Positions 6,186-48,145 of a stretch of 48,145 nt of DNA are shown one piece after another. The DNA lies in contig JAFUGY010000147.1 of assembly GCA_017469115.1 (NCBI GenBank), forward strand, positions 1-48,145, in the 5' to 3' direction. This DNA comes from Oscillospiraceae bacterium. GTDB taxonomy: Bacteria; Bacillota; Clostridia; Oscillospirales; Oscillospiraceae. Under the pieces are notes generated by a model. That model searched no databases, was not told the DNA's origin, and was given only the letters and a program-made list of their open reading frames with translations. Each line of letters begins with the position of its first letter. The first letter of the stretch is position 1. The position numbers and the translations under genes are program-made.

Positions 6186-6194
6186 AAAATAAAT

Positions 6195-13555: not shown

Positions 13556-13607
13556 GTCATTTATCAGGTTCTTGAGATCTCTTTTTACAGGGAAAAACAT
13601 TGTTCCA

Positions 13608-13625
13608 AGTTTAGACTCTGTTTAG
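13608..13625 (+). promoter_or_regulatory. Candidate response-regulator box, rightward
   Basis: AGTTTAGACTCTGTTTAG on the plus strand, matching the leftward box in 16 of 18 positions and lying 70 bp away in inverted orientation. A possible -10 (TATCCT, 13636-13641) lies 10 bp downstream, before the zinc-ribbon gene. Confidence 0.5.
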
Positions 13626-13673
13626 ATTTCTCCTGTATCCTTTCCGTAAAAGCAGACAAAAATGGGGTAAACA

Positions 13674-14090: not shown

Positions 14091-14141
14091 CAATCCAACG
14101 CCTGCACGGTACTATTTTTGAAAGAGATTCCCTATGATCGA

Positions 14142-14187
14142 AAAGCAAAACAGCGGCAGATGTTCTCTTCTGCCGCTGTTTTGCTTT
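14142..14187. terminator. Bidirectional intrinsic terminator
   Basis: A perfect 19-bp stem (AAAGCAAAACAGCGGCAGA at 14142-14160 with 14169-14187) and 8-base loop, A-rich on the left and T-rich on the right. It serves the convergent zinc-ribbon gene and the 14.2-kb minus-strand gene. Confidence 0.85.
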
Positions 14188-14205
14188 CTCTTCCTGTTTA
14201 CCAGT

Positions 14206-14664: not shown

Positions 14665-14679
14665 AACCCTCCTTGCAAT

Positions 14680-15342: not shown

Positions 15343-15398
15343 TTCTATTCTCCTTGCAACACCGTTTTGTTATTCTCAAGGCGTTCGGACTCTACGCT

Positions 15399-16484: not shown

Positions 16485-17155
16485 TCGTTCTTCACCGCCC
16501 TGTATCCCAAACCTCGAACAGACTGGATTTCAAATTCCTTCCATCCTTCAAAGCGTTTGCGAAGACGGCCAATGTGCACGGTCACCGTCTCCCAGCCGGA
16601 TTCACTCTCTGCTCCCCAGATTTCATCCATCAACTGGATGCGTGTAAACGTCTTACCGGGATAACTGAGCAGTTTATAAAGCAAAAGGAACTCTTTTTGC
16701 GGCAGAATCTGTGTCTCACCGTTTTTTGTGACAGACATCGCGTTGTAGTCCAGCACCACATCCCCGATTTCCATTTTTTGCTCACTGGCAATTTTCGCAC
16801 GACGCAAAAGCGCCTTGATGCGAAGGAGCATCTCCTCTTCATCGACGGGCTTGGTCATGTAATCATCCGTCCCAACAAGGAACCCCTGCTTTTTGTCTTC
16901 CGGGAGCTGGCGAGCTGTTACCATGAGGATCGGAAGATCGTTATTGGTGGATCGAAGAAGAGCAGTAAACTCATAGCCATCCATCCGAGGCATCATGATA
17001 TCCAACACCACGAGATCGATATGCTCCCGGTCCATTACGGCAAGTGCTTCTTCCCCATCTCCGGCGACGGAAACCGTATAATGCTCTGCCTCCAGAATTG
17101 CTTTGAAAAGCCTGCGAGTATTTTTATCGTCCTCCACAACCAAAATATGAAACAT
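16481..17155 (-). CDS. OmpR-family response regulator
   Basis: 224 residues from the ATG at 17155, chosen because a GGGGGGAAG ribosome site lies just before it; an in-frame start at 17191 would add 12 residues without support. The receiver domain spans 1-118: acidic pair VVEDD, phospho-Asp in LVVLDIMMPRMDG, Thr in ILMVTAR, Lys in MTKPVD. The winged-helix effector spans about 130-224 (LLSYPGKTFTRIQLMDEIWG, TVHIGRLRKRF). It works with the kinase that overlaps its 3' end. A TTTAG-type tandem box upstream suggests autoregulation. Confidence 0.93.
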   Translation of the reverse strand: MFHILVVEDDKNTRRLFKAILEAEHYTVSVAGDGEEALAVMDREHIDLVVLDIMMPRMDGYEFTALLRSTNNDLPILMVTARQLPEDKKQGFLVGTDDYMTKPVDEEEMLLRIKALLRRAKIASEQKMEIGDVVLDYNAMSVTKNGETQILPQKEFLLLYKLLSYPGKTFTRIQLMDEIWGAESESGWETVTVHIGRLRKRFEGWKEFEIQSVRGLGYRAVKNE

Positions 17156-17197
17156 GCAGCACTTCCCCCCTTCTCTTTCTGAGGGTATCACAGAATT

Positions 17198-17215
17198 CTA
17201 AACACAGAATAAATT
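17198..17215 (-). promoter_or_regulatory. Candidate autoregulatory box of the response regulator
   Basis: Minus strand AATTTATTCTGTGTTTAG, followed by AATTCTGTGATAC. It aligns without gaps to the box and downstream bases before the 13.5-kb hydrolase gene (TTTAG-N8-GATAC in both). Confidence 0.45.
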
Positions 17216-17222
17216 GAACTTG

Positions 17223-18209
17223 CTATCTTGCTTTCCTCGTCTGCCTGTCGGACGAAATTGGAAGGCGTGCCAAGCGATCATCCAGCCGCTCTCTGTTTTT
17301 ATCGATGTTTTCTTTGAGCGACCGCATTTCATCTGTGGCAGACGCATCGTCGTACAGCATGGTAATCAATTGATCCTGATCGTGAATCAGAGAATTTTTA
17401 ATGGATCCCGTGGGCTCCAGCCGATAGGTGATATATTCTTTCCGCTCTTCCAGGCGCTGCTCCATCTTTTCAACACGGTGCTCTGCCACCTTCCGCAGGC
17501 GCTCTGTCTCTGCTTTGATCTCATTCATTCTTGCCAGAATCCGATCGGTTCTATAAAGCACTTCCGGATAGGCATCCGCAAAACGACGGGCAAAAACGGA
17601 GCGGTCCCGGAGGAGCAGCCTCACTTCGCGGCTGATCTCTTCGGTATTGTCTGCTTCGCTGTTCTCGACCCCTGTCTTCACCAGTTTCAAGACAAAGTGA
17701 GAGACAATATAGTCCGCGATAAAAACGGTTGAAAGGGCTCCTGCCGTAATTTCTCTTACGAGTAACGTTATTTTGCCAAACAGCTGAAACAGGAGAGGAT
17801 TGATGACATGAACAATCAGGACTCCACCCAGCCCGAAAAGCACGAGGTTGCCAATCCAGATTCTGCCGTGCAGATTCATCGGCTTCTGGCTGTAATCCCA
17901 CCATCGGGCATGAAAACGTTTTTCCATAAAAAAGCTGGCAAGATATTCCAGAAGACCGCAAAGGACAAAGGAGACGGCAAACGTCGTCCCGAATCCAAAT
18001 TCGATGGGCAAAAGACCTTTTACTACAACGGTAATCAGTGCAGCACCGGAACCGTAAATCGGCAGCCAGGGGCCGGTTAAAAAGCCCCTGTTGATAAAGC
18101 GATGAAACTGAAAATATTTCAGAGTAACCTCAATGCACCAGCCCAAAAACGCATAGGCAAAGAATAACAGAATCAGGTTCAGAATTTCTTCCAAAAGAAT
18201 CTCTTTCAC
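17223..18209 (-). CDS. CmpB-type putative ABC transporter permease family protein
   Basis: 328 residues. The N-terminal 190 residues carry the CmpB (ABC_trans_CmpB) domain with about five membrane helices; typical segments are FAYAFLGWCIEVTLKYF, FINRGFLTGPWLPIYGSGA and RWWDYSQKPMNLHGRI. The C-terminal 130 residues are a charged, helical cytosolic region (EVLYRTDRILARMNEIKAETERLRKV). Despite the family name no transport partner is known, and no ABC ATPase is nearby. It ends 67 bp before the response-regulator start. Confidence 0.8.
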   Translation of the reverse strand: MKEILLEEILNLILLFFAYAFLGWCIEVTLKYFQFHRFINRGFLTGPWLPIYGSGAALITVVVKGLLPIEFGFGTTFAVSFVLCGLLEYLASFFMEKRFHARWWDYSQKPMNLHGRIWIGNLVLFGLGGVLIVHVINPLLFQLFGKITLLVREITAGALSTVFIADYIVSHFVLKLVKTGVENSEADNTEEISREVRLLLRDRSVFARRFADAYPEVLYRTDRILARMNEIKAETERLRKVAEHRVEKMEQRLEERKEYITYRLEPTGSIKNSLIHDQDQLITMLYDDASATDEMRSLKENIDKNRERLDDRLARLPISSDRQTRKAR

Positions 18210-35004: not shown

Positions 35005-36021
35005 ATGGCAACTGTGAAGGATATTGCAGAAAAAGTCGGCGTGTCAGCCACAACGGTTTCCATCGTTTTAAACGGGAAGTCAGAGCAGCGCGGCATTACA
35101 AAAGCCACGCAGGAAAAAATCTACCAAGCAATGAGGGAATTGGGTTATCAGCCAAACCTGAGTGCACGGCGGCTGCGCGCGGGTGAGAATGCTTCGGCAG
35201 TTGTGGCGTTTTTCTGGCCGTCAGACTTCCGCCTGTCTATCCTTGCTTCCTTCCTGAACGCATATTCCAAAAGAATCCGGGAGACCGGATTTCATTGTGA
35301 GCTTGTTGTACAAACCTATGAAAACGACCACCTGGACAAGTATGATCAGACCTTATTGAGAAATAACTACAATGCCGTGATGATCGGCGCATGTTCGCAA
35401 AAAGACCGGGAGCATCTGGAGACACTTCCTTTACAGATTCCTGTCGTCTTAATCAACCGTGAATCTTCGGTCTTCTCGACCGTTTGCGTAGACAACAGTG
35501 CCATCGGGAGGCTTGCTGCCGAACAGTTCTCGAAAGCCGGAATAAAAGAAATTGCAGTTTTTTCTTCGAGAAAAACCTTTATTGCAAGCAATCAACGAAC
35601 AAGAGCTTTTCTATCCGCCTGTAAGGAAATGGAAATCTCTATCCGGCCGGAACATATTTATCAGGATAACAGCACGGCAGACGGTGGATACCGCATGGCA
35701 AAGAAGTTCTGTGCGCAGGGGCATCCCGCAGAAGCTGTTTTTTGTGATTACGACGCCATTGCTTTCGGAGCTCTCAAATGCTTCCGGGAGGAAGGCATCC
35801 GAATTCCGCAGGATCTGAAAATACTAACCATCGATATCACAGGCTCTGAACTGACCTCTCACGCCTCCCCCGCATTAAGTGTCATAGAAATGCCAAACGA
35901 AGCTTCCGCCTCTTCCGCAATCGATCTGATTCGGGAAAAGCTGAAAGAAGGAAGTTTAAAAGCAAGCCACATTGAACTGCAGCCAAAACTTATTCTGCGT
36001 GAGAGTTTTGTGCTCGAATAA
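35005..36021 (+). CDS. LacI-family transcriptional regulator
   Basis: 338 residues. The N-terminal helix-turn-helix and hinge helix are TVKDIAEKVGVSATTVSIVL (residues 3-22) and YQPNLSARRLRAG; the rest is a periplasmic-binding-protein-like sensor domain (about 60-338; AVFCDYDAIAFGALKCFREEGIRIPQDLKILTID). LacI proteins bind palindromes with a central CG, and three such palindromes lie in the 46.0-46.2-kb control region. It is the nearest candidate regulator of the 36.6-48.1-kb cluster, but binding is inferred only. It is monocistronic with its own terminator. Confidence 0.9.
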   Translation: MATVKDIAEKVGVSATTVSIVLNGKSEQRGITKATQEKIYQAMRELGYQPNLSARRLRAGENASAVVAFFWPSDFRLSILASFLNAYSKRIRETGFHCELVVQTYENDHLDKYDQTLLRNNYNAVMIGACSQKDREHLETLPLQIPVVLINRESSVFSTVCVDNSAIGRLAAEQFSKAGIKEIAVFSSRKTFIASNQRTRAFLSACKEMEISIRPEHIYQDNSTADGGYRMAKKFCAQGHPAEAVFCDYDAIAFGALKCFREEGIRIPQDLKILTIDITGSELTSHASPALSVIEMPNEASASSAIDLIREKLKEGSLKASHIELQPKLILRESFVLE

Positions 36022-36086: not shown

Positions 36087-36521
36087 TTATTGATCTTTTT
36101 CTTTTGTCTTCGACAGGTTTGTAAACACGAACGAATATTCCGAAAGAACTGTTCCGAAATTATCCATTACCTCTGCAGAAAGGAAGAACAGATTTCTTCC
36201 CGCTTTTTTTACGGAAGCATGGCAAACCAGCTTATCTGCTTCCGGACTGGCTCCGCGTAAATAATTCACGTTTCCGCTTACGGTGATCCCATTTCCGCCT
36301 GCACTCAAAAATGCCATCCCTGATGTAATATCCGCCAGGTGAAACATCATTCCGCCATAAGGAATCCCATAAAAGTTTCTGCGTTCATCAGACAGCGGAA
36401 ACTCCCCACACGCGAAACCGTTTTCTACTGTGGGAAAAACGATTCCATACTTTTTCTCAATATCCTGTCTGGCAATTTCAATAGCTTCTTCACTTGTATT
36501 TGGGATCACACGATTCTGCAT
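36087..36521 (-). CDS. PaaI-type hotdog thioesterase
   Basis: 144 residues with one hotdog domain. The catalytic-helix signature of PaaI proteins reads NFYGIPYGGMMFHLADITSGMAF; the usual HGG is YGG here. The core strands follow (ITVSGNVNYLRGA, LVCHASVKKAGRNLFFLSAEV). Expected to hydrolyse acyl-CoA or aryl-CoA thioesters in the cytosol. It is the third thioesterase-fold gene of the window. It is convergent with the LacI gene and upstream of nothing on its own strand. Confidence 0.82.
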   Translation of the reverse strand: MQNRVIPNTSEEAIEIARQDIEKKYGIVFPTVENGFACGEFPLSDERRNFYGIPYGGMMFHLADITSGMAFLSAGGNGITVSGNVNYLRGASPEADKLVCHASVKKAGRNLFFLSAEVMDNFGTVLSEYSFVFTNLSKTKEKDQ

Positions 36522-36657: not shown

Positions 36658-37983
36658 TTAATGGAGCAAACGATAGAGGATACCGATCCAAATGACCATC
36701 AAGGCGCCGCCGATACGGGTGGAGATGGAAGCGAAGGCCAGGAGGTTCATGCGGTTTGCAGCAGAGAGAACTGCAAGGTCGCCCGAGCCGCCGATGTTGC
36801 AGCAGCAGAGACCTGCCGTAACACCTGCTTCATAGCCGAACAGGCCGGTGAGGTGACCGAAGAGCAGAGCGCCGAGGAATGCGCCGAGCACTGCAATGAT
36901 GATGACGATGAATGCTCCGATGGAGAAATACTCTGTAAGAGAAGAGAACTTGAGGGAGTTGATACCTATACCGGCAATCAGCATCGGCAGGAGAGCACGA
37001 AGAGCAAAGTTCATGGAGTAGACGCAGTGATCTTCATATTTTGCAGGCAGAATGCCGGTGCACTTGATGATGATGCCGAGAACGATCGTCCATGCAAGGC
37101 CCGGGATCACCTTGAGACCAGGGATATTGCCTAAAATGTTGCCCAGCAGATACAGAGCGAATGCCATGAAAATACCGCCGCCGAGTGCCTTGTAATCAGC
37201 CGTCGTTGCAGGGCGTTTTTCTGCAGTGAGGTCTTCCTGCACACCCTTACGGAGGATCTGTCCGCCGCCGTTGATCACCTTGCTGTTCTTGGTGATGCCG
37301 CCGAAGGTTGCTGCCATCACGATAGCCACAACGTTTGCGATGGATGCATAGCAGAGGAACTTGCCGGCTTCCGTCATCATATCGGTTCCGGAGAGGTCGC
37401 TGTAGAGTTTCGGCAGCGTGGTAATCGCGCCGCCCGAGCCGCCGGACATGCAGGGTGCTGCGATGTCAAAGAGAGCTTTCACAGGGCCGAAGCCTGTGAT
37501 CAGACCGGCGATCATGGCGAAGGCAATGGCAAAAATCTGAGAGCCGATGACCGTGGGGATGTAACGTGCCGTTGCATTGAGAAGAATTTTGCGGTCCATT
37601 ACAAGGATGGAGCCGACCAGAAGCATTGCAATGTAGGCATCCTGGAAGCCGCCGGACATCAGGACTTTTACGCCGGAGACCATCGTAGCCGGAACAAGCC
37701 CGACATAGTTCAGGAACGAAGCGCCGAGCAGCGGGAGCAGGCAGGCACCGCCGAGGTAGTTATTCACGAAGGGGATGGTATTGCCGAGCCAGAAGAAGAG
37801 GCCGCCGATTGCCATCAGATAGGCACTGGTTGCAACGAAAGATGATGCCGTGAGCCCGTCAGCAAGCTTGCTGGTGGGGATGAAGCCGAGGTAGACCGCT
37901 GCCATTACCATCACAAAGAACGGCACAAAATACTTGAAGGGCAGGCCGCACACATCAAAATTGATTTTTGATTTGTTTTCCAT
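36658..37983 (-). CDS. 2-hydroxycarboxylate transporter (2HCT/CitS family)
   Basis: A 441-residue membrane protein with about 11-12 helices. The two re-entrant loop motifs of the family are present: CMSGGSGGAITTLP (about 181-194) and CCCNIGGSGDLAV (about 400-412). The C-terminal substrate-binding signature ISTRIGGALM also matches CitS-type carriers, where the Arg contacts the substrate carboxylate. Relatives move citrate, malate or related hydroxy acids, with Na+ or H+ or by exchange. Last gene of the five-gene operon, 87 bp after the CoA-transferase, so it is the likely uptake system for the substrate of the pathway. Confidence 0.9.
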   Translation of the reverse strand: MENKSKINFDVCGLPFKYFVPFFVMVMAAVYLGFIPTSKLADGLTASSFVATSAYLMAIGGLFFWLGNTIPFVNNYLGGACLLPLLGASFLNYVGLVPATMVSGVKVLMSGGFQDAYIAMLLVGSILVMDRKILLNATARYIPTVIGSQIFAIAFAMIAGLITGFGPVKALFDIAAPCMSGGSGGAITTLPKLYSDLSGTDMMTEAGKFLCYASIANVVAIVMAATFGGITKNSKVINGGGQILRKGVQEDLTAEKRPATTADYKALGGGIFMAFALYLLGNILGNIPGLKVIPGLAWTIVLGIIIKCTGILPAKYEDHCVYSMNFALRALLPMLIAGIGINSLKFSSLTEYFSIGAFIVIIIAVLGAFLGALLFGHLTGLFGYEAGVTAGLCCCNIGGSGDLAVLSAANRMNLLAFASISTRIGGALMVIWIGILYRLLH

Positions 37984-38070
37984 TTCATAACTCCTTAAAA
38001 TGTTTATTAGAATCCGCTTTCTGCAGGAATTCCCATAAGTTTTTTCATGTTATCTGATTGTTGTTTTCAC

Positions 38071-39369
38071 TCAGACCCACATTAGTTTTTTCGCTTCGTC
38101 AGCCAATTCAGTTCTGAAATCAGGATGGGCAATGGCAATCAGAGCATTGGCACGTTCTTTCAGTGTTTTTCCCCTCAGATGGGCAATGCCGTATTCGGTA
38201 ACGATATAGTCTGCATAATTTCGGGGAATGGTAACGGTAGACCCTGCGCCGAGCGTTGCACGAATTTTTGAGAAGCCTTTTGCGGATTTGGAAGAGAAGG
38301 CCATGATTGCCCGCCCGCCTTTGGAACGAAGCGCACCGTAGGTAAAGCAGAATGCGCCGCCCGAACCGGAGAACTGCCTTGTACCAATGGCTTCCGAAGC
38401 AATCTGCCCCATCAGATCCATTTCCACGCAGGTATTAATGGAGACGAGGTTATCGTTTTTTGCAATGATAAACGGGTCACAGCCCCAACTACCCGGCGTG
38501 ATGCGGAACTGATTGTTTGTCTTCAACGTCTCAAACAGGGCTTCATCACCACCTGCGAAGGTGAAGATATGTTCCTTCGGAAGAAAGTTTTTCTTCTTGC
38601 CGGTGATAACTCCTTCGCGCACCATTTTTGCCATGGAACTGGTAAGCATTTCGGTGTGCATCCCAAGATCATTCAAATCCATGCAAAGTTCCGCAATAGC
38701 ATTTGGAAGTGCTCCGATGCCAAACTGCACACAATCGCCGTCATGAACGAGAGACCGGACATTTCTGGCAACCTCTGCCTCCTCCGGAGAGGCTGCTTTG
38801 GGAGGAATGAGAGTAATCGGTGTATCGGTTTCTACGAGAGCCGCCACATCCGACACATGAACTTCTATTCCGCCATTCACTCTCGGAAGATTTGGGTTTA
38901 CCTCCAAGAGGATTCTGCCCCCATTGCTGCGAACAGCATTCAGGCTGCCGGGTTCAAACATATTGGAAAGGCCAATCTGGAAATTGCCGTTCTCATCCAT
39001 TTCCGTAGCAGAAGAGATAAACACAGTAGGGTGGTTTTCTGCAATAAAGCCGGCATTCATGCTCATATCTGCCGGGAAAAAGGAGGAATTCCCTTTCGGA
39101 AGGCCTTCACGCATGTCTCTGCCAAAGAAGAAACCCTGTGTGAAGATATGCCCTTCCATTCCATCCATTGTCGGGAAAGGATAGTAGTTGGTAAAATCCT
39201 TGAAAACCTTTACATTCTGTACCCGTGGGGCAATGGTATGAAACTGTGCACCAAAGGAAAGCGGAGCATTTCCGTCACAGGCAAAAACCACTACATCCCC
39301 GGATTGTATCAGGTTGAGACACTCTTCTACCGAGCCTTTCTTTTTTGCATATTCTGCTTTGTAATCCAT
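38071..39369 (-). CDS. Acetyl-CoA hydrolase/CoA-transferase family enzyme (4-hydroxybutyrate CoA-transferase type)
   Basis: 432 residues from the second ATG (MDYKAEYAKK); an ATG two codons upstream is possible. The family-I CoA-transferase fold is shown by VQFGIGALPNAIAELC, LGMHTEMLTSSMAKMV, VITGKKKNFLP, the catalytic-Glu segment INTCVEMDLMGQ, the glycine loop FSGSGGAF and VTEYGIAHLRGK...AHPDFR near the end. It moves CoA between a carboxylate (often acetate) and an acyl-CoA. In the glycine loop region the usual DF.RGA reads CFTYGA, so specificity may differ from classic AbfT. It lies 17 bp after the fused aconitase-like gene. Confidence 0.87.
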   Translation of the reverse strand: MDYKAEYAKKKGSVEECLNLIQSGDVVVFACDGNAPLSFGAQFHTIAPRVQNVKVFKDFTNYYPFPTMDGMEGHIFTQGFFFGRDMREGLPKGNSSFFPADMSMNAGFIAENHPTVFISSATEMDENGNFQIGLSNMFEPGSLNAVRSNGGRILLEVNPNLPRVNGGIEVHVSDVAALVETDTPITLIPPKAASPEEAEVARNVRSLVHDGDCVQFGIGALPNAIAELCMDLNDLGMHTEMLTSSMAKMVREGVITGKKKNFLPKEHIFTFAGGDEALFETLKTNNQFRITPGSWGCDPFIIAKNDNLVSINTCVEMDLMGQIASEAIGTRQFSGSGGAFCFTYGALRSKGGRAIMAFSSKSAKGFSKIRATLGAGSTVTIPRNYADYIVTEYGIAHLRGKTLKERANALIAIAHPDFRTELADEAKKLMWV

Positions 39370-39386
39370 ATGCATCTCTTTTCCCG

Positions 39387-41180
39387 TCAGGCTCTCGGGT
39401 CGGTGATCACGCCGGCAATCGCCGTAGCTGCCGCAACAGCCGGGCTGCTGAGATAACTGAGCGTCTTTTTGGTGCCCTGTCTGCCGATGAAGTTGCGATT
39501 GGCAGTGAGGAGGATCCGTTCATCATCCGTCATAAGGCCGTATGGCATCCCACAGCAAAGACCGCAGCAGGGATGGGAGATGACTGCACCGGCTTCGATA
39601 AAGGTTTTGATATAACCTCTTTCAATCGCCTGCTTGAACACAGTGTTGGTTGCCGGCACCACCACAAAGCGCATACCAGGTGCAACCTGCTTGCCCTTGA
39701 CGATGTTTGCGGCAACTTCCAGATCTTCAATGCTGCCGTTGGTGCAGCTGCCGAGATAGACCTCATCAATCTTTGTGCCGAGCACTTCATGGATCGGATG
39801 GACGTTATCAACCCCCTGCGGGCAAGAGAGCTGTGGTTCCAGCTCACTGACATCATAAGTCAGGACTCTTTCATAGTGGGCGTCTTCGTCCACACGGATC
39901 CAATCGATTTCGCTGAGGGGAATGCCGTAATATTCGGCTGTCTTCTCATCGGCTTCAAAAAGACCGCACTTTGCACCGGCTTCCAGCGCCATATTAGCAA
40001 CTGTAAAGCGCTGCTCCATGCTCATCTCATGGGCTGCCGGACCGGTGAACTCCATAGACTTGTACTGGCCGCCGTCTGCCTTGATATCACCAAGGACACG
40101 CAGAATGACATCCTTGGACATGATTCCGTTTTTAAAATGACCGTTCAGGACAATTTTGATTGCCGTCGGCACTTTGAACCAGAGTTCGCCGGTGATGAGA
40201 GCCGCAGCCATTTCTGCCGTGCCGATGCCGGAGCAGAAGTTCCCGGCCCCGCCGTAGGTGGTGGTATGGGAGTCAGTTGCGGTAGAAATCTCACCAGGTT
40301 TGGCATAGCCTGCTTCATGCATGATGGTATGGCAGATGCCTTCGCCGATGTGCAGCTTTTTCACACCATAGCGTCTTGCAATTTCAAGACCTGCATCATA
40401 ATGAGCGGAGTCATTTTTGGCAACTGCCGTGGGCATGCAGTGGTCAAAGATAATGGTGACTTTGTCCGGATCGTCAATTTCCGTCGCACCCATCTTCTCC
40501 AACGTATCCAGAAGATACGGGGTATAGATATCATGGATCATGAACATATCCGGCTTTGTGATGACGATATCCCCGGGCTGCACATGCTCTTTCCCCGCAT
40601 TGCGCTTCAGGAGCTTTTCTGCAAGGGTATACCCGCTCTTATAGCACTGCTCTTTTGTGAGGGGTGTGATTTCAGTCTTCTTGAGACCGGCTGCCATACG
40701 AGCTTTGGTATCCTCAATCAAACCGCCGTTGGAGACAATATTGAAGAGATTCTCCGGCACAGCACCCACCTTGAAGCTTTTGCCGTTGACGGAAACCGTC
40801 TGTGCATCCACGTCGACTGTGACAATATCGCCGCCTTCACAGACATCCTGAATACCGTCGCAGGTCAGGAGAAGGATGCCGCTGTTAAATGCATTGCGGA
40901 AGAAGATGCGGGCAAAGCTTTTTGCAATAATGCATCTTACGCCGTTATGGGAAAGCACCGTGGCAGCCTGCTCACGGGAAGAGCCGCAGCCAAAGTTCGT
41001 GCCGGCTACCAGAATATCGCCCGGCTGAACCGTGGAACCGAATTCCGGCTTGAGAAGTTCAAAAGCGTACTTTTTCATCTCCTCAATGGTAGGGATTGTG
41101 CCGCGTTTACCGGGAATGATGGTATCAGTGTCGATATCGTTCCCGAATTTCCAGATTTTTCCGTTAAAAACTTTATCCAT
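39387..41180 (-). CDS. Aconitase/isopropylmalate-isomerase family enzyme, swivel domain fused N-terminally
   Basis: A 597-residue hydro-lyase. Residues 1-165 are a LeuD-type swivel domain (WKFGNDIDTDTIIPGK, VAGTNFGCGSSREQAA, AKSFARIFFRNA). Residues 190-597 are a LeuC-type catalytic domain (TIIFDHCMPTA, TATDSHTTTYGGAG). All three [4Fe-4S] ligands are present: C479 in GSCTNG and two of the cysteines in PCCGLCC (about 538-543), followed by ANRNFIGRQG. Small-subunit-first order is the reverse of AcnA and recalls AcnB. It should isomerise a hydroxy di- or tricarboxylate through a dehydrated intermediate; which one is not decided by the sequence. It lies 11 bp from the genes on both sides of it. 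Confidence 0.87.
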   Translation of the reverse strand: MDKVFNGKIWKFGNDIDTDTIIPGKRGTIPTIEEMKKYAFELLKPEFGSTVQPGDILVAGTNFGCGSSREQAATVLSHNGVRCIIAKSFARIFFRNAFNSGILLLTCDGIQDVCEGGDIVTVDVDAQTVSVNGKSFKVGAVPENLFNIVSNGGLIEDTKARMAAGLKKTEITPLTKEQCYKSGYTLAEKLLKRNAGKEHVQPGDIVITKPDMFMIHDIYTPYLLDTLEKMGATEIDDPDKVTIIFDHCMPTAVAKNDSAHYDAGLEIARRYGVKKLHIGEGICHTIMHEAGYAKPGEISTATDSHTTTYGGAGNFCSGIGTAEMAAALITGELWFKVPTAIKIVLNGHFKNGIMSKDVILRVLGDIKADGGQYKSMEFTGPAAHEMSMEQRFTVANMALEAGAKCGLFEADEKTAEYYGIPLSEIDWIRVDEDAHYERVLTYDVSELEPQLSCPQGVDNVHPIHEVLGTKIDEVYLGSCTNGSIEDLEVAANIVKGKQVAPGMRFVVVPATNTVFKQAIERGYIKTFIEAGAVISHPCCGLCCGMPYGLMTDDERILLTANRNFIGRQGTKKTLSYLSSPAVAAATAIAGVITDPRA

Positions 41181-41191
41181 GGGGCACCTCC

Positions 41192-42316
41192 TTAAATTTC
41201 TTTGCTGACTGACGCCAGTGCTACCGACTGCACAGATGCAGAATAGATCGTTGCGCTGGGAACGCCCATAGCGCCTGTATAGGTATAGAGCCCGGTCGTG
41301 AGAAGCACTTCATTTGCTCCCATAGCGCCTGCCCCCTGAACGATCTCACTGTGGTCACCCGCAGCATTGATCTGTGCACCGTAATCGATAAACTGTGTGA
41401 TCAGGCCTTCTTCACAAGCCTGAATATAATCTGCCGAAGTTGCCGGGCAAATGCTCAGCCGGAAACCGAGGGCAAGTTTCTTTCCTTTCAGAAGAGAGGC
41501 TGCGAGACGGAGATCCTCAATGGTGCCGCCTGTATATCCGCCGATCTGACCTGCATGGAGCACCGTGCCGGCAACGGTTGCCTTTTCGGCAAAGGAGGCA
41601 TTTTTCTGATTCTTTCTCTCATCACAGGGCAGCATCACCATCGGGACGACGGATGAAAGATCGAAGGACAAGGCATCGTCTGCTGCGGTGCTTCGGATGC
41701 TGGCAGTGTATGCCCCGGTGCTGCCGACAATGCTGAGGAAGACTTCTTTTTCATGTTGGGTAAGGGAAGGTGCATAAACTTCCAAAGCTTTTTTCTGAAG
41801 TGCTTCACGGTTTTTGCGCAGGAAAGCAAATGCCGCATCCATCGCACTGGCGCTTTCGGGAAGGGCACCTTTAAGATTCACACACACGGTCTCGGGAACT
41901 ACCGTGCTGAACCGCCCTGTTTCGACAAGGCGGGCAAGCTCCGGAACGCTGACATTGATACCAAGCACTCCGTTTGCGCCGAAAATGGAAGCATGGCTTC
42001 CTCCCCCGACGACAATCTGCCCCGGTTTTACCACTTCATGCAGGAGATAAAGATAACCGATCCCTTTTGCCTGCACATAATGGCAGCCGTACTTCTGTGC
42101 AAAGAGGAGATTTTTTCGAAGAATTGCAGCTGCTTCCGGGCGGCCTGTCGGCACGTCATGATCGTAGACAACATAAACTTTCTCCGGATAGGCGACACTG
42201 CCGATTTCATCCACTGCTGCATGGGAAACGCCGTCGTTCATCACGACAACATCGGGCTCAATGGTGACAACGCTTCCTGCTGCACCGCCAAGCACTGCCT
42301 CGATAAATGTACTCAT
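41192..42316 (-). CDS. Aconitase-like large-subunit paralogue lacking all Fe-S cluster ligands
   Basis: 374 residues that follow the LeuC/aconitase catalytic domain from end to end: IEPDVVVMNDGVSHAAV, VVYDHDVPTG, HEVVKPGQIVVGGGSHASIFGANG, FSTVVPETVCVNLKG, GGTIEDLRLAASLLKGKK, FRLSICPATSADYIQACEEG. The cluster ligands are gone: GSCTNG reads GGYTGG (about 259-264), the PGCxxC region reads AAGDHSEIVQ (about 318-327), and the substrate-binding NRNFEGR region reads TGLYTYTGAMG. The Asp of the DSH motif is Gly, but DHDVPT and Ser-His remain. It cannot be a normal [4Fe-4S] hydro-lyase. It may be a cluster-free enzyme or a partner of the next gene product, which is complete and lies 11 bp away. Confidence 0.8.
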   Translation of the reverse strand: MSTFIEAVLGGAAGSVVTIEPDVVVMNDGVSHAAVDEIGSVAYPEKVYVVYDHDVPTGRPEAAAILRKNLLFAQKYGCHYVQAKGIGYLYLLHEVVKPGQIVVGGGSHASIFGANGVLGINVSVPELARLVETGRFSTVVPETVCVNLKGALPESASAMDAAFAFLRKNREALQKKALEVYAPSLTQHEKEVFLSIVGSTGAYTASIRSTAADDALSFDLSSVVPMVMLPCDERKNQKNASFAEKATVAGTVLHAGQIGGYTGGTIEDLRLAASLLKGKKLALGFRLSICPATSADYIQACEEGLITQFIDYGAQINAAGDHSEIVQGAGAMGANEVLLTTGLYTYTGAMGVPSATIYSASVQSVALASVSKEI

Positions 42317-42404
42317 AGATCGCTCCTTGTATTTTTAAAAATTAAGGTTAGACTGCTTTCTGTTGCGCGCTGCCTGCCTTTTGTGACAGACAGCGCAATA
42401 TCCA

Positions 42405-42833
42405 TTACTTTGCCAGTGCTTCGTATTTTGCGTAACGAGCCATTGCTTCTGCTTCCGTGCGGGCAAAGAGCTCTTCTGCCACTTCGGGGAAGGTACGTGT
42501 GAGGGAAGCGTAACGGGTTTCACCCATGAGGTAATCGCGGAAGTTACCTTCAGGCTTTTTGGAATCGAGCTGGAAGGGGTTCTTACCTTCTTCTGCGAGT
42601 TTCGGATTGTTGCGATAAAGCTGCCAATATCCGACGTCAACCGCACGTTTGATCTCGCCCTGTACATCTGCCATACCGCAGCGGAGGCCGTGGTTGATGC
42701 AGGGTGCGTAAGCAATAATCAGCGAGGGGCCATCATAGGCTTCCGCTTCCAGAACTGCTTTGAGGAACTGATTCGGGTTGGCACCGAGAGCCACCTGGGC
42801 AACATATACATCACCATAGCTCATGGCCATCAT
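42405..42833 (-). CDS. nifJ: Pyruvate:ferredoxin oxidoreductase, C-terminal part after a frameshift
   Basis: 142 residues that continue the PFOR sequence where the upstream frame breaks: MMAMSYGDVYVAQVALGANPNQFLKA, GPSLIIAYAPCINHGLRCGM (Cys-containing TPP-domain segment) and the C-terminal extension YWQLYRNNPKLAEEGKNPF. The first ATG overlaps the TGA of the upstream frame by 4 bp, and AAAAGGA lies 7 bases before it, so reinitiation is conceivable. In homologues this segment is internal to one chain. The simplest reading is one gene, 42405-45928, with a one-base deletion. Confidence 0.85.
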   Translation of the reverse strand: MMAMSYGDVYVAQVALGANPNQFLKAVLEAEAYDGPSLIIAYAPCINHGLRCGMADVQGEIKRAVDVGYWQLYRNNPKLAEEGKNPFQLDSKKPEGNFRDYLMGETRYASLTRTFPEVAEELFARTEAEAMARYAKYEALAK

Positions 42834-45800
42834 GCCAAGGTCCTTTTCTTGCGGCGTTTGCCGGCTGCCGCAAACTGAGCAACTGCACCCGTCGGTGTGG
42901 ATTTGGAAGCCTGTCCGCCGGTGTTGGAATAAACTTCAGTATCGAACACCAACACATTCACGTTAACCCCGGATGCCAGCACATGGTCCAGCCCACCGTA
43001 TCCGATATCGTACGCCCATCCGTCTCCGCCGAAGAACCAGATGGATTTTTTCGCCAGGTGATCATAGTTTTCTTTTACAACAGCTACTGCTGCTTTTTCT
43101 TCTTCCGAAACAGGAATATAGGCATTCACTGCTGCTTTGAGCTTTTCACCGGCAAGGCGGGAACCATCTTTATCATTGAACTGTGCAAGCCACTCACTGC
43201 CGGCTTCACGGATCCGGTCGTTATTAGTCAGATCGATCAGCTTCTGCAGGTTATCTGCCAACTTCTGACGCTGCTGTTCCACAGACAGCCAGATGCCCAT
43301 GCCGTATTCGGCGTTGTTTTCAAACAGAGATCCGCCCACTGCCGGCCCCTGCCCTTTTGCATTTTTGGTGTAGGGGAAGGATGGGAAAGAAGTTGCCCAG
43401 ACCTGAGAGCAACCGGTTGCGGTGGCAACATACATTCTGTCACCAAAGAGCTGGGTAATCAGCTTTGCATACGGTGTTTCACCGCAGCCGGGGCATGCAC
43501 CTGGGAACTCGAGCAACGGCTGCTGGAACTGGCTGCCCTTTACCGTGTTCACACCGAGAGGGTTCTTGACCGGGAGGTTGATGGCATATTCAAAGTTTTC
43601 CGCATCCTTCTTGTGTTCATCCAAAGGCTGCATGGAAATGGCCTTTTCTTTTGCCGGGCAGCAGTTGACGCAGGAGCCGCAGCCGGTGCAGTCGAGTGTA
43701 GCGACCTGAATGCTGAACTGCAGGCCCTCCAACCCCTTGCCTCTTGCCGGCATCATCTGGAAGCCTTCAGGTGCATTGGCTGCTTCCTGCTCATCCAGCA
43801 GGAAGGGACGAATCACTGCGTGCGGGCAAACATAAGAGCACATGTTGCACTGGAGGCACTTGCTGCTGTCCCACACAGGGACTTTGAAAGCAATCCCGCG
43901 CTTCTCATATTTGGAAGTGCCCTGAGGCATGGTGCCGTCCGGCAGGTCGATAAATGCGCTGACAGGAATGCTGTCACCCGTCATGGAGTTAACGGGAATC
44001 TGAATCTTCTTAATCCAATCCGGGAGAGAAGGATCGACCGTTGCAGGCTTCACCTCGATATCTGCCCAGGCAGAAGGAACTTTCACTTCCCGAACCTGCT
44101 CCATGCCGCTGTCAACTGCAGCATAGTTCATGTTAACGACGCGCTCACCCTTTTTGCCGTAGGTCTTCAGGATAGCGGCCTTCATATATTCAACGGCTTT
44201 GTCTTCCGGGAGAATTCCAGTGATTTTAAAGAATGCTGCCTGCAGGATGGTGTTGGAACGGCTGCCGAGACCCAGTTTTTCGGCAATGCCTGCAGCATCG
44301 ATGGTGTAAAGGCGGATTTTCTTTACCGCTGCATCATGCTTGAAAGCATCCGTGAGATTCTTTTCCAGCTCTTCGCCCTGCCAGTCACACGCGATGAGAA
44401 CGCTGCCACCTTCTTTGACGTCTTTCAGAATGTCATATCTGTCAAGGTAGGATTTATTATGGCAAGCTACAAAATCAGCATGATTGACGAGGTAAGTGGA
44501 AAGAATAGGCTTATGGCCGAAACGCAGATGGGAGCGCGTTACGCCACCGGATTTCTTGCCGTCATACTGGAAATATGCCTGAACAAACATATCGGAGTGG
44601 TCACCAATAATCTTAATGCTGTTCTTGTTCGCGCCGACCGTGCCGTCTGACCCGAGACCCCAGAACTTGCAGCTCACCGTGCCTTCGGGAACCGTATTCA
44701 CTTCCGGGCCGACGGGCAGAGAATAATGGGTCACGTCATCATTGATGCCGACGGTGTAGTGGTTCATCGGGGATTCAGCCTTCATGTTGTCAAACTGGGC
44801 AATGACCTGGGCAGGCGTATAGTCCTTGGTGCCGAGACCGAAGCGGCAGGCGAGAACGCAGATGTCTTTTCCATTCTCGTGAATGACGGAAGCAACGTCT
44901 TCATAAAGAGGTTCGCCGACAGCACCGGGCTCTTTGGTGCGGTCACCGACGGTGATGACTTTCACCGTCTCCGGTAATACCTGCAGGAAGTGCTTTGCAG
45001 AGAAAGGCCGATAGAGATGCACATCGACAAAGCCGACTTTTTCACCCTTGGCGGTGAGATAATCCACCGTTTCACGGATGCAGCCTGCAGAAGAGCCCAT
45101 TGTGATGATGACGCGCTCTGCATCCGGTGCGCCGTAATAATTATAAGGAAGATAATTGCGGTCTGTGAGCTTGTTGATCTCTTCCATGTATCCGGCGACG
45201 ACATCAGGCAGGGCATCATAAAAGCTGTTGCAGGCTTCGCGGCTCTGGAAATATGTATCGTCATACTGGCCGGTGGTGCGGAGAACCGGATGCTCGGGGT
45301 TCAGTGCATTTTCACGGAACTTGCGGAGTTCTTCCCAATCCACCAGGTTTTTCAGATCGTCATAATCAAGGCATTCCACATTCTGAATTTCATGGGAGGT
45401 ACGGAAGCCATCAAAGAAGTGGAGGAATGGCACATGCCCGCGAATGGCAGAAAGATGTGCAACTGCGCCCAAATCCATGCAACTCTGCACATCGGACGAA
45501 GCCAGAAGCGCAAACCCAGTCTGCCGACAGGCCAGCACGTCGGACTGCTCTGCATTAATGGTAACTGCATGCGTTGCGACATTGCGGGAAGCAACGTGGA
45601 TCACGCCCGGCTTCAGCTGGCCGGCAATACGGTACATGGTCGGGATCATCAGCATCAAGCCCTGAGAGGCTGTGTAGGATGTGCCGAGGACGCCGCCATC
45701 GAGCGCACCGTGCATCGCGGAAACAGCACCGCATTCCGACTGCATCTCAACCAGCTTCACTCTCTGCCCGAAAATGTTGAGCTTGCCGTTTGCTGACCAG

Positions 45801-45928
45801 GAATCGACATGCTCCGCCATCGGGGAGGACGGAGTGATCGGATAAATTGCTGCTACTTCTGTAAACGCATAGGATGCATATGCGGCAGCTTCATTACCGT
45901 CCATCGCTTTAACAATCTTTTTTGCCAT
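42830..45928 (-). CDS. nifJ: Pyruvate:ferredoxin (flavodoxin) oxidoreductase, N-terminal 1032 residues before a frameshift
   Basis: Oxidises pyruvate with CoA to acetyl-CoA and CO2, reducing ferredoxin, using TPP and Fe-S clusters. Domains in order: N-terminal pyrimidine-binding domain (MDGNEAAAYASYAFTEVAAIYPITPSSPMAEH, with the TYAFTE-type segment), domain II/III, ferredoxin-like clusters CLQCNMCSYVCP (about 690) and CTGCGSCVNCCP (about 745), then the TPP domain (CPGCGETPYAKL, FFGGDGWAYDIGYGGLDHV, EVYSNTGGQASKSTPTGA). The frame then ends in KRRKKRTLA; adding one A in a run of four restores the homologous KRRKKKDLGMMAMSYG into the next frame. First gene of the five-gene operon, with AAGGAGG before the ATG. 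Confidence 0.93.
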   Translation of the reverse strand: MAKKIVKAMDGNEAAAYASYAFTEVAAIYPITPSSPMAEHVDSWSANGKLNIFGQRVKLVEMQSECGAVSAMHGALDGGVLGTSYTASQGLMLMIPTMYRIAGQLKPGVIHVASRNVATHAVTINAEQSDVLACRQTGFALLASSDVQSCMDLGAVAHLSAIRGHVPFLHFFDGFRTSHEIQNVECLDYDDLKNLVDWEELRKFRENALNPEHPVLRTTGQYDDTYFQSREACNSFYDALPDVVAGYMEEINKLTDRNYLPYNYYGAPDAERVIITMGSSAGCIRETVDYLTAKGEKVGFVDVHLYRPFSAKHFLQVLPETVKVITVGDRTKEPGAVGEPLYEDVASVIHENGKDICVLACRFGLGTKDYTPAQVIAQFDNMKAESPMNHYTVGINDDVTHYSLPVGPEVNTVPEGTVSCKFWGLGSDGTVGANKNSIKIIGDHSDMFVQAYFQYDGKKSGGVTRSHLRFGHKPILSTYLVNHADFVACHNKSYLDRYDILKDVKEGGSVLIACDWQGEELEKNLTDAFKHDAAVKKIRLYTIDAAGIAEKLGLGSRSNTILQAAFFKITGILPEDKAVEYMKAAILKTYGKKGERVVNMNYAAVDSGMEQVREVKVPSAWADIEVKPATVDPSLPDWIKKIQIPVNSMTGDSIPVSAFIDLPDGTMPQGTSKYEKRGIAFKVPVWDSSKCLQCNMCSYVCPHAVIRPFLLDEQEAANAPEGFQMMPARGKGLEGLQFSIQVATLDCTGCGSCVNCCPAKEKAISMQPLDEHKKDAENFEYAINLPVKNPLGVNTVKGSQFQQPLLEFPGACPGCGETPYAKLITQLFGDRMYVATATGCSQVWATSFPSFPYTKNAKGQGPAVGGSLFENNAEYGMGIWLSVEQQRQKLADNLQKLIDLTNNDRIREAGSEWLAQFNDKDGSRLAGEKLKAAVNAYIPVSEEEKAAVAVVKENYDHLAKKSIWFFGGDGWAYDIGYGGLDHVLASGVNVNVLVFDTEVYSNTGGQASKSTPTGAVAQFAAAGKRRKKRTLA

Positions 45929-46002
45929 AACAGTTCCTCCTTACCGGCCTGCTCCATCTCCGCCGGCTTTTATTTGTTGTTTCATGATTGATGCAAAAGC
46001 AT

Positions 46003-46018
46003 AGTTTAACGTAAAACT
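46003..46018. promoter_or_regulatory. Palindromic operator copy 1
   Basis: AGTTTAACGTAAAACT, palindromic except for one base pair; it lies downstream of the leftward PFOR promoter. Confidence 0.6.
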
Positions 46019-46030
46019 TGAACTGATTGC

Positions 46031-46059
46031 AGTTTACTACAACGTTAAACTGAAGTCAA
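46031..46059 (-). promoter_or_regulatory. PFOR operon promoter with embedded operator copy 2
   Basis: Minus strand: TTGACT (46059-46054), 17-bp spacer, TAAACT (46036-46031). The spacer contains AGTTTAACGTTG, a half-conserved copy of the palindrome (46040-46051), so bound protein would block the polymerase. Confidence 0.65.
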
Positions 46060-46159
46060 CACTTCTTTTTTGTTTTTCCGTTTTTCAGCGTTTTGCATAA
46101 AAAAGGATCTCCAAATTTGTGCAACATTACCAATCATGAAACAAAGCGAAAAAGTTTTT

Positions 46160-46175
46160 AGTTTAGCGTTAAACA
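46160..46175. promoter_or_regulatory. Palindromic operator copy 3
   Basis: AGTTTAGCGTTAAACA: a GTTTA-n-CG-n-TAAAC palindrome ending 6 bp before the -35 of the rightward promoter. Confidence 0.6.
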
Positions 46176-46181
46176 AAAGTG

Positions 46182-46211
46182 TTGACAAACCATTTTGCCT
46201 TGTGCTAAGCT
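46182..46211 (+). promoter_or_regulatory. Promoter of the decarboxylase-like operon
   Basis: TTGACA (46182-46187), 18-bp spacer, TAAGCT (46206-46211). The leader to the ATG at 46296 is about 80 bases and contains a GC-rich GCCGCGGATCC...AGCAGCGGC inverted segment. Confidence 0.65.
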
Positions 46212-46295
46212 ATGAGCAGAAAAATAAAAGCCGCGGATCCTGCCCCTCCGAGAAAAGGGCAAAAGCAGCGGCTAAAAGAAAGGTGTGTACCCATT

Positions 46296-47702
46296 ATGTC
46301 TTACGGTGTTTTTGCAACCAATACCCCTGTTCGCTTTACCAGCCTGGAATTCAGAGACGGGCAGCAGTCGAAGCTGGCAACAAGAGTAAAAACAAAAGAT
46401 ATGCTCCCCTTTCTGGAGCGTATGGACAAGATCGGTTTCGATAACATGGAAATGTGGGGCGGTGCTACTTTTGATGTATGCATCCGCTATCTGAACGATG
46501 ACCCGTGGGAACGCCTGCGCAAATTTAAATCCGTGATGAAAAACACACCTCTGAAAATGGTGTGCCGTGGGCAGAACCTTGTGGGTTACAGAGCGTATCC
46601 GGATGATATCGTCCGCCGTTTCATTACCGCCGCCGCCCGCAACGGGATTGACATCTTCCTGATTTTTGATGCGCTGGATGATCTGCGCAACTGTGAGACG
46701 GCTTTTGACGCTGCGCTTCAAGCCGGCAAACGGGTGGAAGGCTCTACGCAGTACAACATCAGCCCTTACCATACGGATAAGATGCGCGTTGAGAATGCTT
46801 TGGAACAGCAGAAAATGGGCGCCTCAGGCCTGCATATTGAAGACATGGCCGGCCTCATGACACCGAGCGGTGCCTACTCTCTGGTTTCTGAAATGAAGGC
46901 TGCCCTGGATATCCCCGTATTTCTGCACTGCCACTGCACCGGCGGCATGGCAGAGATGTGCTATTGGGAAGCCATTCGTGCCGGGGTTGACGGCGTGGAT
47001 GTAACCACTTCTCCCCTCGGCCTCGGGCCATCCCTCCCGGCTGTAGAAAGCTTGATTGCAGCCCTGCGCGGCACACCGAGGGACCCGAAGATTGATCTTT
47101 CCCTCTTTAATTCCCTGAACAACGATTTCAAAGCTCTGCGGAAAAAATATGCCGAAAACGCCTCGGAGCTGATCGGCGTTGATATCGGCTGCCTGCAGCA
47201 CCAGATTCCGGGCGGAATGCTCACCAACCTGGAGAGCCAGCTCAAAGCGATGAACGCCTTTGACCGCCTGCCGGAAGTGCTGGAAGAAGCGATTCAGGTT
47301 CGTGCCGATATGGGCTATCCTCCGCTTGCCACACCGTCCAGCCAGATGTGCGGCCAGCAGGCGACCACCAACGTGCTCTCCGGAAAGCGTTACGGCACAA
47401 TTTCCAAGGAAATGAAGGAATACTGCCGCGGCATGTACGGGAAAGCACCCGGCCCTCTGAACCCGGATCTTGTGAAGAAAGCATTGGGAGACGAAGCTCC
47501 CATTACCTGCCGCCCTGCCGATCTGATTCCCAACGGATGGGAACAGGCGGAAAAAGAAGCCGGCGATCTTGCCACCTGTGAAGAAGACGTTCTCACCTAT
47601 GCGCTGTTCCCGACCGTCGCTCCGGCCTTCCTGGAAGAGAAGAAAAAGCGCCTCGAGAACATCCACAAATACAAAGTAGAAAGGATCGACCGGAAGAAAT
47701 GA
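46296..47702 (+). CDS. Oxaloacetate-decarboxylase-alpha/5S-type carboxyltransferase with altered active site
   Basis: 468 residues from the ATG at 46296 (GAAAGG upstream; the frame extends further without a ribosome site). TIM-barrel carboxyltransferase: EFRDGQQSKLATR (metal Asp D21), MEMWGGATFDVCIRYLNDDPWER, CRGQNLVGY, metal His pair in LHCHCTGGMAEM (H211, H213), and a C-terminal helical part with HQIPGGMLTNLESQL. There is no biotin domain; the carrier is a separate gene. Two hallmark residues differ. The metal-binding carbamylated Lys (IKDMAG) is Glu at E182 (IEDMAG), and the Arg of FRIFDALND that holds the 2-oxoacid carboxylate is Leu at L122 (FLIFDALDD). The fold is certain; the substrate may not be oxaloacetate. 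Confidence 0.85.
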   Translation: MSYGVFATNTPVRFTSLEFRDGQQSKLATRVKTKDMLPFLERMDKIGFDNMEMWGGATFDVCIRYLNDDPWERLRKFKSVMKNTPLKMVCRGQNLVGYRAYPDDIVRRFITAAARNGIDIFLIFDALDDLRNCETAFDAALQAGKRVEGSTQYNISPYHTDKMRVENALEQQKMGASGLHIEDMAGLMTPSGAYSLVSEMKAALDIPVFLHCHCTGGMAEMCYWEAIRAGVDGVDVTTSPLGLGPSLPAVESLIAALRGTPRDPKIDLSLFNSLNNDFKALRKKYAENASELIGVDIGCLQHQIPGGMLTNLESQLKAMNAFDRLPEVLEEAIQVRADMGYPPLATPSSQMCGQQATTNVLSGKRYGTISKEMKEYCRGMYGKAPGPLNPDLVKKALGDEAPITCRPADLIPNGWEQAEKEAGDLATCEEDVLTYALFPTVAPAFLEEKKKRLENIHKYKVERIDRKK

Positions 47703-48064
47703 AAACAGAGCTTATCAACCTTGGCATAGGCCAGGCGGGCGCGATTGCAATTCTGGGTTATCTGGTTGTGTTTCTCGGATTGGTGCTGCTGATGCTGGTT
47801 GTGCTGGCAATGGCAAGCTATTTCATCGGGAAAGCTAAGAAACCGGCTGCAGCCGCAGGCCCTGCAGATAAACCTGTGACGAAAGCTCCTGCCCCGGCAG
47901 CAGAGCCTGTAAAGGCTCCTCCCGCACCGGGCACAGCAGGTGAGTTTAAGCTTTACAACACCGATCCCAGAGATGCGGCGATGGTGATGGCCATTGTGGC
48001 AGACGCCACCGGAATTCCGCTCAACGAGCTGCGCTTCAAGTCCATCAAGGAGGTAAAGGAATAA
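47699..48064 (+). CDS. OadG-type gamma subunit of a sodium-pump decarboxylase
   Basis: 121 residues: one N-terminal membrane helix at about 17-43 (AIAILGYLVVFLGLVLLMLVVLAMAS), an Ala/Pro-rich linker (about 53-80), and a C-terminal segment (YNTDPRDAAMVMAIVADATG). This is the layout of OadG/MmdD-like subunits, which tie the transferase to the membrane beta subunit of Na+-pumping decarboxylases. The start overlaps the alpha-like gene by 4 bp. The beta subunit is not in the window. Confidence 0.8.
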   Translation: MKTELINLGIGQAGAIAILGYLVVFLGLVLLMLVVLAMASYFIGKAKKPAAAAGPADKPVTKAPAPAAEPVKAPPAPGTAGEFKLYNTDPRDAAMVMAIVADATGIPLNELRFKSIKEVKE

Positions 48065-48065
48065 G

Positions 48066-48145
48066 ATGAAATACAAAGTAACACTGAACAAGAGAGTATA
48101 TGAAGTAGAAGTAGAGCAGGGCGAGGCGATGCTCGTGGATGAGTA
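48066..48145 (+). CDS. Biotin carrier subunit, N-terminal fragment
   Basis: The frame starts at ATG 48066 with AAGGAGG at 48047-48053, and it runs off the window after 26 codons (MKYKVTLNKRVYEVEVEQGE...). This opening is typical of the small biotin carriers of methylmalonyl-CoA, glutaconyl-CoA and oxaloacetate decarboxylases. The biotin Lys (MKM motif) lies outside the window. It follows the gamma subunit by 1 bp. Confidence 0.75.
   Translation, partial: MKYKVTLNKRVYEVEVEQGEAMLVDE

Follow-up and report, generated by a model that had tools for sequence, protein, structure and literature searches.

Which acid do two facing operons at the end of a clostridial contig ferment, and with which enzymes? 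The window, meaning the whole 48,145-nucleotide stretch that was analysed, is an entire contig (G000:C15) of a draft Oscillospiraceae genome (2.64 Mb, 148 contigs, 89% complete) whose nearest named relatives are Oscillospiraceae metagenome-assembled genomes (MAGs) from yak and goat duodenum. On its minus strand, running from 45928 to 36658 with short spacings, lie genes for pyruvate:ferredoxin oxidoreductase (PFOR), a LeuC-like protein of 374 amino acids, a LeuD-LeuC fusion of 597 amino acids, a CoA-transferase and a 2HCT-family carrier. Opposite them on the plus strand are genes for a protein resembling OadA, the alpha subunit of oxaloacetate decarboxylase (OAD), for OadG, and for the first 26 codons of a biotin carrier, truncated by the contig end. 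An earlier interpretation, made from the letters of the DNA (the sequence-only reading), had described both the minus-strand operon and the facing biotin-dependent decarboxylase-like genes in these terms, and its description was borne out. The module is real and conserved, with shared operator-like sites and two unusual proteins. Our preferred reading, held tentatively and at less than even confidence, is that it serves, under LacI control, the catabolism of a 2-alkylmalate, with citramalate (2-methylmalate) the likeliest.

In the proposed pathway, the 2HCT carrier would import the acid, and the LeuD-LeuC fusion, helped by its LeuC-like paralogue (called cluster-less below), would convert the 2-alkylmalate to a 3-alkylmalate. 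An isopropylmalate-dehydrogenase-like enzyme, encoded beside the module in eight relatives and not found in the window genome, would oxidise this to an alkyl-oxaloacetate, from which the OadA-like protein would produce a 2-oxoacid (2-oxobutyrate in the case of citramalate). In the window's clade, decarboxylation would be coupled to a sodium pump made up of OadG, the biotin carrier and OadB. The dedicated PFOR would turn the 2-oxoacid into propionyl-CoA (or a C4-C5 acyl-CoA), and energy would be recovered by phosphotransacylase and butyrate kinase or, in the window, by the CoA-transferase. The sequence-only reading had already proposed uptake, isomerisation, decarboxylation, PFOR oxidation and acyl-CoA disposal, and that scheme is supported; the acyl group at its end is probably C3-C5 and not acetyl.

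Two short patterns from the peptide sequence of the LeuC-like protein, which could miss more distant members, picked out 30 loci in a collection of 84,980 species genomes. Fourteen of these (L040-L053, 46-89% identity) belong to the cluster-less family; the 16 distant loci (L054-L069) were rejected as members, their cluster cysteines being present (for L069, the alignment has a gap at the first site). The family is rare, with a match in one of 393 other genomes of the order at E 1e-30 and, among 59 sampled relatives, a close match in genus mate G020 alone (L040 is apparently the same record). Named strains with the module are Gemmiger sp. An120 and Clostridium sp. Marseille-P2415. Conservation of the neighbourhood, a check that the sequence-only reading had proposed, was found: PFOR directly precedes the cluster-less gene in 12 of the 14 loci (the exceptions are L044 and L053), and the fusion comes next after it in all 13 loci where the contig extends (L040, L042 and L044 are short contigs). 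Around this core there is a CMD-family gene in 11 of 12 testable loci, a 2HCT gene in 9 of 11 (not in L050 or L053), an isopropylmalate-dehydrogenase-like gene in eight (L053 instead has a canonical LeuB-like gene), and phosphotransacylase and butyrate kinase in nine loci each. L040 and L041 resemble the window in having a CoA-transferase.

The operons of the window are separated by 367 bases that contain three LacI-type sites around TTTAACGTTAAAC. The 8-mer CGWTAAAC occurs three times in this region and four times in the other 47,778 bases; across 13 loci, the intergenic regions (4,415 bases) contain 23 copies and the other 266,052 bases contain 27, with at least one copy in 12 of the 13 divergent regions (L053 has none). 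As the motif was chosen by inspection of these very regions, its enrichment is not an independent test. A clear LacI homologue was found near the module in 11 of 12 testable loci, the other (L050) having merely a 23% match 8 kb away. In the window, the 2HCT gene is followed by a 4HBT thioesterase-like gene and then by a convergent LacI-family gene, which is the probable regulator of the module. The earlier claim of one module whose operons share operator-like sites is supported.

The two aconitase-like proteins were compared with family models and with each other, and the presence of a fused enzyme beside a cluster-less paralogue, as first described, was confirmed. The fusion scored above the cut-offs of TIGR01343, TIGR02086 and TIGR02087 and did not reach the LeuC equivalogs. 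Its cluster cysteines (C479, C539 and C542) are invariant across 11 rows; the nearest solved relative of its LeuD domain is 3vba, the small subunit of an isopropylmalate/citramalate isomerase, and the RGTI motif of that domain aligns with the YLRT loop of homoaconitase. The three cysteines are absent from all 15 rows of the cluster-less protein (the window and 14 relatives). The protein of the window retains an Asp-His pair (D52/H53) and H108, all of them invariant. Where the fusion has H284, D303, R562 and R567, the corresponding residues are gone from the window's protein; we take these positions to have catalytic meaning. As 91 of 382 alignment columns are invariant, the cluster-less protein looks constrained and not decaying; it possibly acts together with the fusion, or else catalyses an isomerisation or epimerisation of its own. 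Aconitase X (AcnX) is also a divergent member of the superfamily with an altered cluster site. However, AcnX still binds an Fe-S cluster via three cysteines, according to a passage of PMC8184944, whereas the protein described here has no cluster cysteines and PF00330 is the only Pfam family listed for it.

The second unusual protein is the OadA-like subunit. Its residue 182 aligns, with no gaps to that point, with residue 178 of the V. cholerae OAD (2nx9), and Lys178 of OAD has been proposed to take the carboxyl group before biotin (in a passage of PMC2881705). This site is Glu in all 11 E-type rows that cover it (the window and 10 relatives) and Val in L047; it is Lys in all five housekeeping copies and in three solved relatives with alignments shown. 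The metal ligands D21, H211 and H213 (aligned with Asp17, His207 and His209 of the V. cholerae enzyme) are retained, as are R91, Q24 and T346, which we take to be the 2-oxoacid-binding and proton-shuttle positions of pyruvate carboxylase. The 11 E-type rows are separated from the five K-type rows by 24 columns, including V89 for Leu, L122 for Arg and A345 for Val, with smaller residues at positions 89 and 345. The E type forms one group (support 100/99), with L047 adjoining, in a midpoint-rooted tree with a long branch, made from 17 of the 18 rows with the L050 fragment left out. At E 1e-155, a sample of 390 genomes of the class yielded no further copy. In L050 the fragment adjoins the CMD gene; in L047 the CMD gene is kept, and the OadA-like gene (16535-17866), which encodes Val where the lysine would be, lies at the opposite end of the operon.

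The same residues bear on an alternative that we consider unlikely, in which the OadA-like protein would be a metal lyase or aldolase of DRE-TIM type, independent of biotin, whose product pyruvate feeds the PFOR, and the adjoining pump genes would serve the ordinary alpha subunit. Such an enzyme would fit the loss of Lys178 in all 12 module copies covering the site (Val in one), since other DRE-TIM lyases are not known to have that lysine; it would also fit the HMG-CoA-lyase-like gene that adjoins a 2-oxoacid oxidoreductase in L053, and the pairing of most OadA-like copies with a CMD-family protein and no pump. It is opposed by the retention of R91, Q24 and T346, given the pyruvate carboxylase roles assumed above, and by the pump cassette, which lies inside the OadA-like operon and, in the window genome, hardly differs from the housekeeping copy.

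The beta subunit was not visible from the window because the window is a whole contig that ends in the biotin carrier. The complete order (OadA-like, OadG, biotin carrier, OadB, CMD) is seen in L041; G020 has the first four genes up to a contig end, and contig C68 of the window genome has the tail of OadB followed by CMD. In L041, the OadG-biotin carrier-OadB genes of the module and of the housekeeping operon share 91.6% DNA identity over 2,016 bases, in a block reaching from the end of the alpha gene as far as the end of OadB. The two alpha genes align merely in a 221-base patch (~71%), and CMD was not found by the housekeeping OAD operon of that genome. In the window genome, contigs C15 and C16 both break off within a shared OadG-biotin carrier sequence, with 97.8% identity over 447 bases. 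Over the same stretch, the two pump copies of the window genome are 83.0-84.2% identical to L041 or G020 (83.3% between the module copies of the window and L041). On the simplest reading, the cassette was copied between the OadA-like and CMD genes, and gene conversion keeps the copies alike, in the window genome if nowhere else; it is as if both alphas had to be served by one pump. A fault in the draft assembly is less likely, because this order recurs in L041 and G020, each on contigs of its own. The end of C15 (window 47694-48145) matches L034 4830-5281, the assembly having probably broken at the duplicated pump operon.

The substrate was considered from the remaining components. The carrier exceeds the gathering score of PF03390, scores 245.4 against the 600 needed for the CitS equivalog, and differs in the stretch aligned with GGGNG of CitS. 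The 32 best-scoring solved sequences for the L048 dehydrogenase are all named 3-isopropylmalate dehydrogenase, and its score (339.5) is below the LeuB cut-off (353.2). The substrate helix ExxLMxLR is present in five of eight module copies; in all eight, the catalytic Tyr of GGIYFG is replaced by Leu, Ile or Phe and the NAD loop EPxHGSAPD by YTxNQLH, changes that would be compatible with release of an undecarboxylated beta-oxo acid. The butyrate kinase of L048 exceeds its curated cut-off (421.5 against 289.1), which suggests a C3-C5 acyl group, and the CoA-transferase of the window reaches 254.6 with TIGR03948, below the cut-off of 674.8. The N-terminal part of the PFOR scores 1531.8 with TIGR02176 (cut-off 911.35), and module PFORs have Ala in nine of nine rows at two sites where all 11 usable housekeeping PFORs have Gly (of 15 housekeeping loci, L080, L086, L095 and L096 were dropped; partial loci were left out). 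Three other PFORs and a partial fourth are present in the window genome.

The LeuD relative, the dehydrogenase of isopropylmalate type, the butyrate kinase, the Ala sites of the PFOR and the non-CitS score of the carrier together argue for a 2-alkylmalate over citrate. Citramalate was chosen as the most familiar acid of this kind, and 2-ethylmalate or still larger homologues are possible. Among the substrates offered by the sequence-only reading, the citramalate-like acid fits best, given the dehydrogenase of the relatives, the LeuD relative and the kinase, and citrate and aconitate fit less well. That reading was also right that the enzymes are atypical, and had overlooked the dehydrogenase step of the relatives, the CMD-family protein, which may act as a partner of the OadA-like subunit, and the Lys-to-Glu change.

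We regard as improbable a citrate/aconitate module in which the fusion would be an aconitase, isocitrate would give oxalosuccinate, and the OadA-like protein would be an oxalosuccinate decarboxylase giving 2-oxoglutarate. Precedents exist, as OAD serves citrate fermentation in Klebsiella (a passage of PMC8473912) and the trans-aconitate fermentation of Acidaminococcus passes through citrate, oxaloacetate and pyruvate and has citrate lyase among its listed genes (a passage of PMC3035267). These fermentations share with the module a tricarboxylate-type carrier, OAD-type subunits and pyruvate oxidation. However, the module is without citrate lyase, and has a LeuD-LeuC isomerase and a butyrate-type kinase instead. 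A search for the citrate lyase alpha subunit (CitF, PF04223) gave no match in the window genome, 89% complete, in agreement with the earlier remark that no citrate lyase is visible; it matched in three of 14 control genomes. CitF was not found in seven of 11 module genomes, the window's included, and in the other four lies outside the module genes, mostly on other contigs or far away. A citrate route would be favoured by the window genome having no aconitase-like match other than LeuC on C105 (no ordinary aconitase was matched in this draft), yet an NADP isocitrate dehydrogenase near an HMGL-family synthase-like gene, and by the aconitase and MatC/CitMHS-type carrier downstream in L053. It is disfavoured by the carrier, which is far below the CitS models and differs at GGGNG, by the isopropylmalate type of the relatives' dehydrogenase, by a kinase of butyrate type and not of succinate or acetate type, and by the four module genomes in which citrate lyase is kept additionally. 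The synthase-like gene, a GntR-like gene (by eye) and the isocitrate dehydrogenase stand in a row at L157 (G000:C148, 5399-8699); we take the first to be Re-citrate synthase-like.

Two loci are variants of the usual arrangement. L053 (strain CE91-St43) retains LacI, the cluster-less protein and the fusion, with LeuB, the MatC/CitMHS-type carrier and aconitase downstream and a CaiB-type CoA-transferase, the HMG-CoA-lyase-like gene, a VorABC-type oxidoreductase, two esterase-family genes and a sodium symporter upstream (cluster 243-17387). L044 likewise has two esterase-family genes and a similar sodium/solute symporter upstream. Judging from these variants, the isomerase pair would be the core, and the steps leading in and out would be exchanged around it, the acid perhaps being used in ester- or lactone-linked form. 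A further alternative, likewise improbable, is another 2-hydroxyacid as natural substrate (a larger 2-alkylmalate, or a lactone- or ester-linked acid) with the scheme otherwise unchanged. It would account for these esterase and symporter genes, for the MBL-fold gene that half of the loci (7 of 14) have in the vicinity of the module and for a pocket of isopropylmalate dehydrogenase type that would accept bulkier groups, and is countered by the single-chain PFOR, which we take to suit a small 2-oxoacid.

The PFOR of the window was correctly identified in the sequence-only reading, which overlooked that one missing base splits it into two open reading frames. L035 is intact at the break, and nine other relatives have a single frame of 1,169-1,200 amino acids. 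The frameshift lies near a run of A (window 42820-42860) and is an assembly error or a recent mutation; programmed frameshifting was rejected, as the relatives read through in one frame.

Several observations weigh against a 2-alkylmalate module with a pump-coupled decarboxylase. The carboxyl transfer of OAD is not feasible in its proposed form when Lys178 is lacking, and the residue is Val in one genome. In L043-L046, L048, L049, L051 and L052, the OadA-like gene adjoins a small CMD-family gene without OadG or OadB, and co-occurrence of OadA-like and OadB genes in a genome was rejected as evidence, OadB being so common (115 of 147 genomes of the order) that it means little. Gene conversion is clear for the window alone; the L041 module copy of the pump, 90.9% identical to its own housekeeping copy, is nearly as close to that of the G020 module (89.1%). 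The substrate helices of L041 (VYTLTAAR) and L049 (ARALLELR) deviate, that of L052 (EQALMKMR) being close; L041 is the window's nearest relative with the dehydrogenase, and the argument from the pocket therefore has least force in the clade of the window itself. No module-type dehydrogenase was found in the genomes of the window, L043 and G020 (72% complete), LeuB and isocitrate dehydrogenase being the sole members of the family found in the first. In G432, a CitF fragment ends the module contig ~12 kb from the dehydrogenase gene. L053 has no OadA-like gene or PFOR in its flanks and no OadB in its genome, and has other enzymes instead. The window's copy of the module, with its frameshifted PFOR and no dehydrogenase found, may itself be decaying or impaired.

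The features of the window are listed below. The likely start of the OadA-like gene is at 46296 and not at 46212, and is the same in L041. Among the relatives, L048 (13860-16914) has a 2HCT frame of 776 amino acids and a second, partial copy, an apparent internal duplication or assembly fault, and L050 (12958-14887), from a Gemmiger MAG, has no 2HCT gene in its sequenced flank and has phosphotransacylase, MBL and kinase matches, some partial.

Features of the module and its flanks in the window (feature, positions, strand, support)
LacI-family regulator, probable module regulator	35005..36021	+	PF00356, PF13377; LacI homologues near relatives' modules
4HBT thioesterase-like, probably of the module	36087..36521	-	PF03061; similar gene adjoins the L041 module
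2HCT-family carrier, divergent from CitS	36658..37983	-	PF03390, 425 bits; nearest solved structures are CitS
Acyl-CoA:acetate CoA-transferase-like (butyryl-CoA:acetate family)	38071..39375	-	PF13336, 184 bits
Fused LeuD-LeuC hydro-lyase/isomerase, cluster cysteines intact	39387..41180	-	PF00330, PF00694
Cluster-less LeuC-like paralogue	41192..42316	-	PF00330, 80 bits, sole Pfam family listed
PFOR C-terminal part, out of frame with the rest	42405..42833	-	TIGR02176 positions 1026-1166
PFOR N-terminal 1032 amino acids, specialised paralogue	42830..45928	-	TIGR02176, 1531.8 bits; module-specific residues
Shared divergent promoter region, three LacI-type operator-like sites (46004, 46043, 46167)	45929..46295	.	
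OadA-like carboxyltransferase-barrel protein, Glu182 replacing OAD Lys178	46296..47702	+	
OadG-like subunit	47699..48064	+	97.8% DNA identity to the C16 copy over 447 bases to contig end
Start of biotin carrier protein, cut by contig end	48067..48145	+	full protein in L041

Isoleucine can be synthesised via citramalate by CimA, LeuCD and LeuB. The module resembles this route, which also leads through a LeuCD-type isomerase and a LeuB-type dehydrogenase to 2-oxobutyrate, and would be the same route run as catabolism. It differs in its fused LeuD-LeuC, in the extra cluster-less protein, in a dehydrogenase (in relatives) without the catalytic Tyr, and in the addition of a separate decarboxylase-like protein, a PFOR and an energy-conserving end. 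Citramalate is also a known intermediate, cleaved to acetate and pyruvate (a passage of PMC8473912). The methylaspartate/(S)-citramalate lyase pathway of glutamate fermentation likewise has a citramalate-type intermediate and PFOR, but no gene of citramalate-lyase type was seen among the module genes. With the Na+-pumping OAD the module shares the carboxyltransferase barrel and metal ligands of its OadA-like protein and, in the window's clade, OadG, the biotin carrier and OadB; it differs in the replacement of Lys178 by Glu or Val, in the CMD partner and in the lack of an adjacent pump in eight relatives. In a literature search confined to open-licence papers, no published description of such a module or of other citramalate catabolism was found; searches of such papers for Lys-to-Glu variants of OAD brought no gain, and those for dehydrogenase pockets no matches.

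It is possible, though doubtful, that a new alpha subunit of a sodium-pump decarboxylase works without its carboxyl-carrying lysine (with Glu or Val there) on a new alkyl-oxaloacetate, together with a cluster-less aconitase relative as obligate partner or new enzyme, in an undescribed 2-alkylmalate fermentation of gut Clostridia. If this is right, a biotin-pump alpha subunit would challenge the idea of a lysine-carbamate step in OAD, citramalate-type acids in animal guts would have an energy-yielding route, and the aconitase superfamily would gain a cluster-free member, one that adjoins a cluster-bearing member in all 13 testable relatives.

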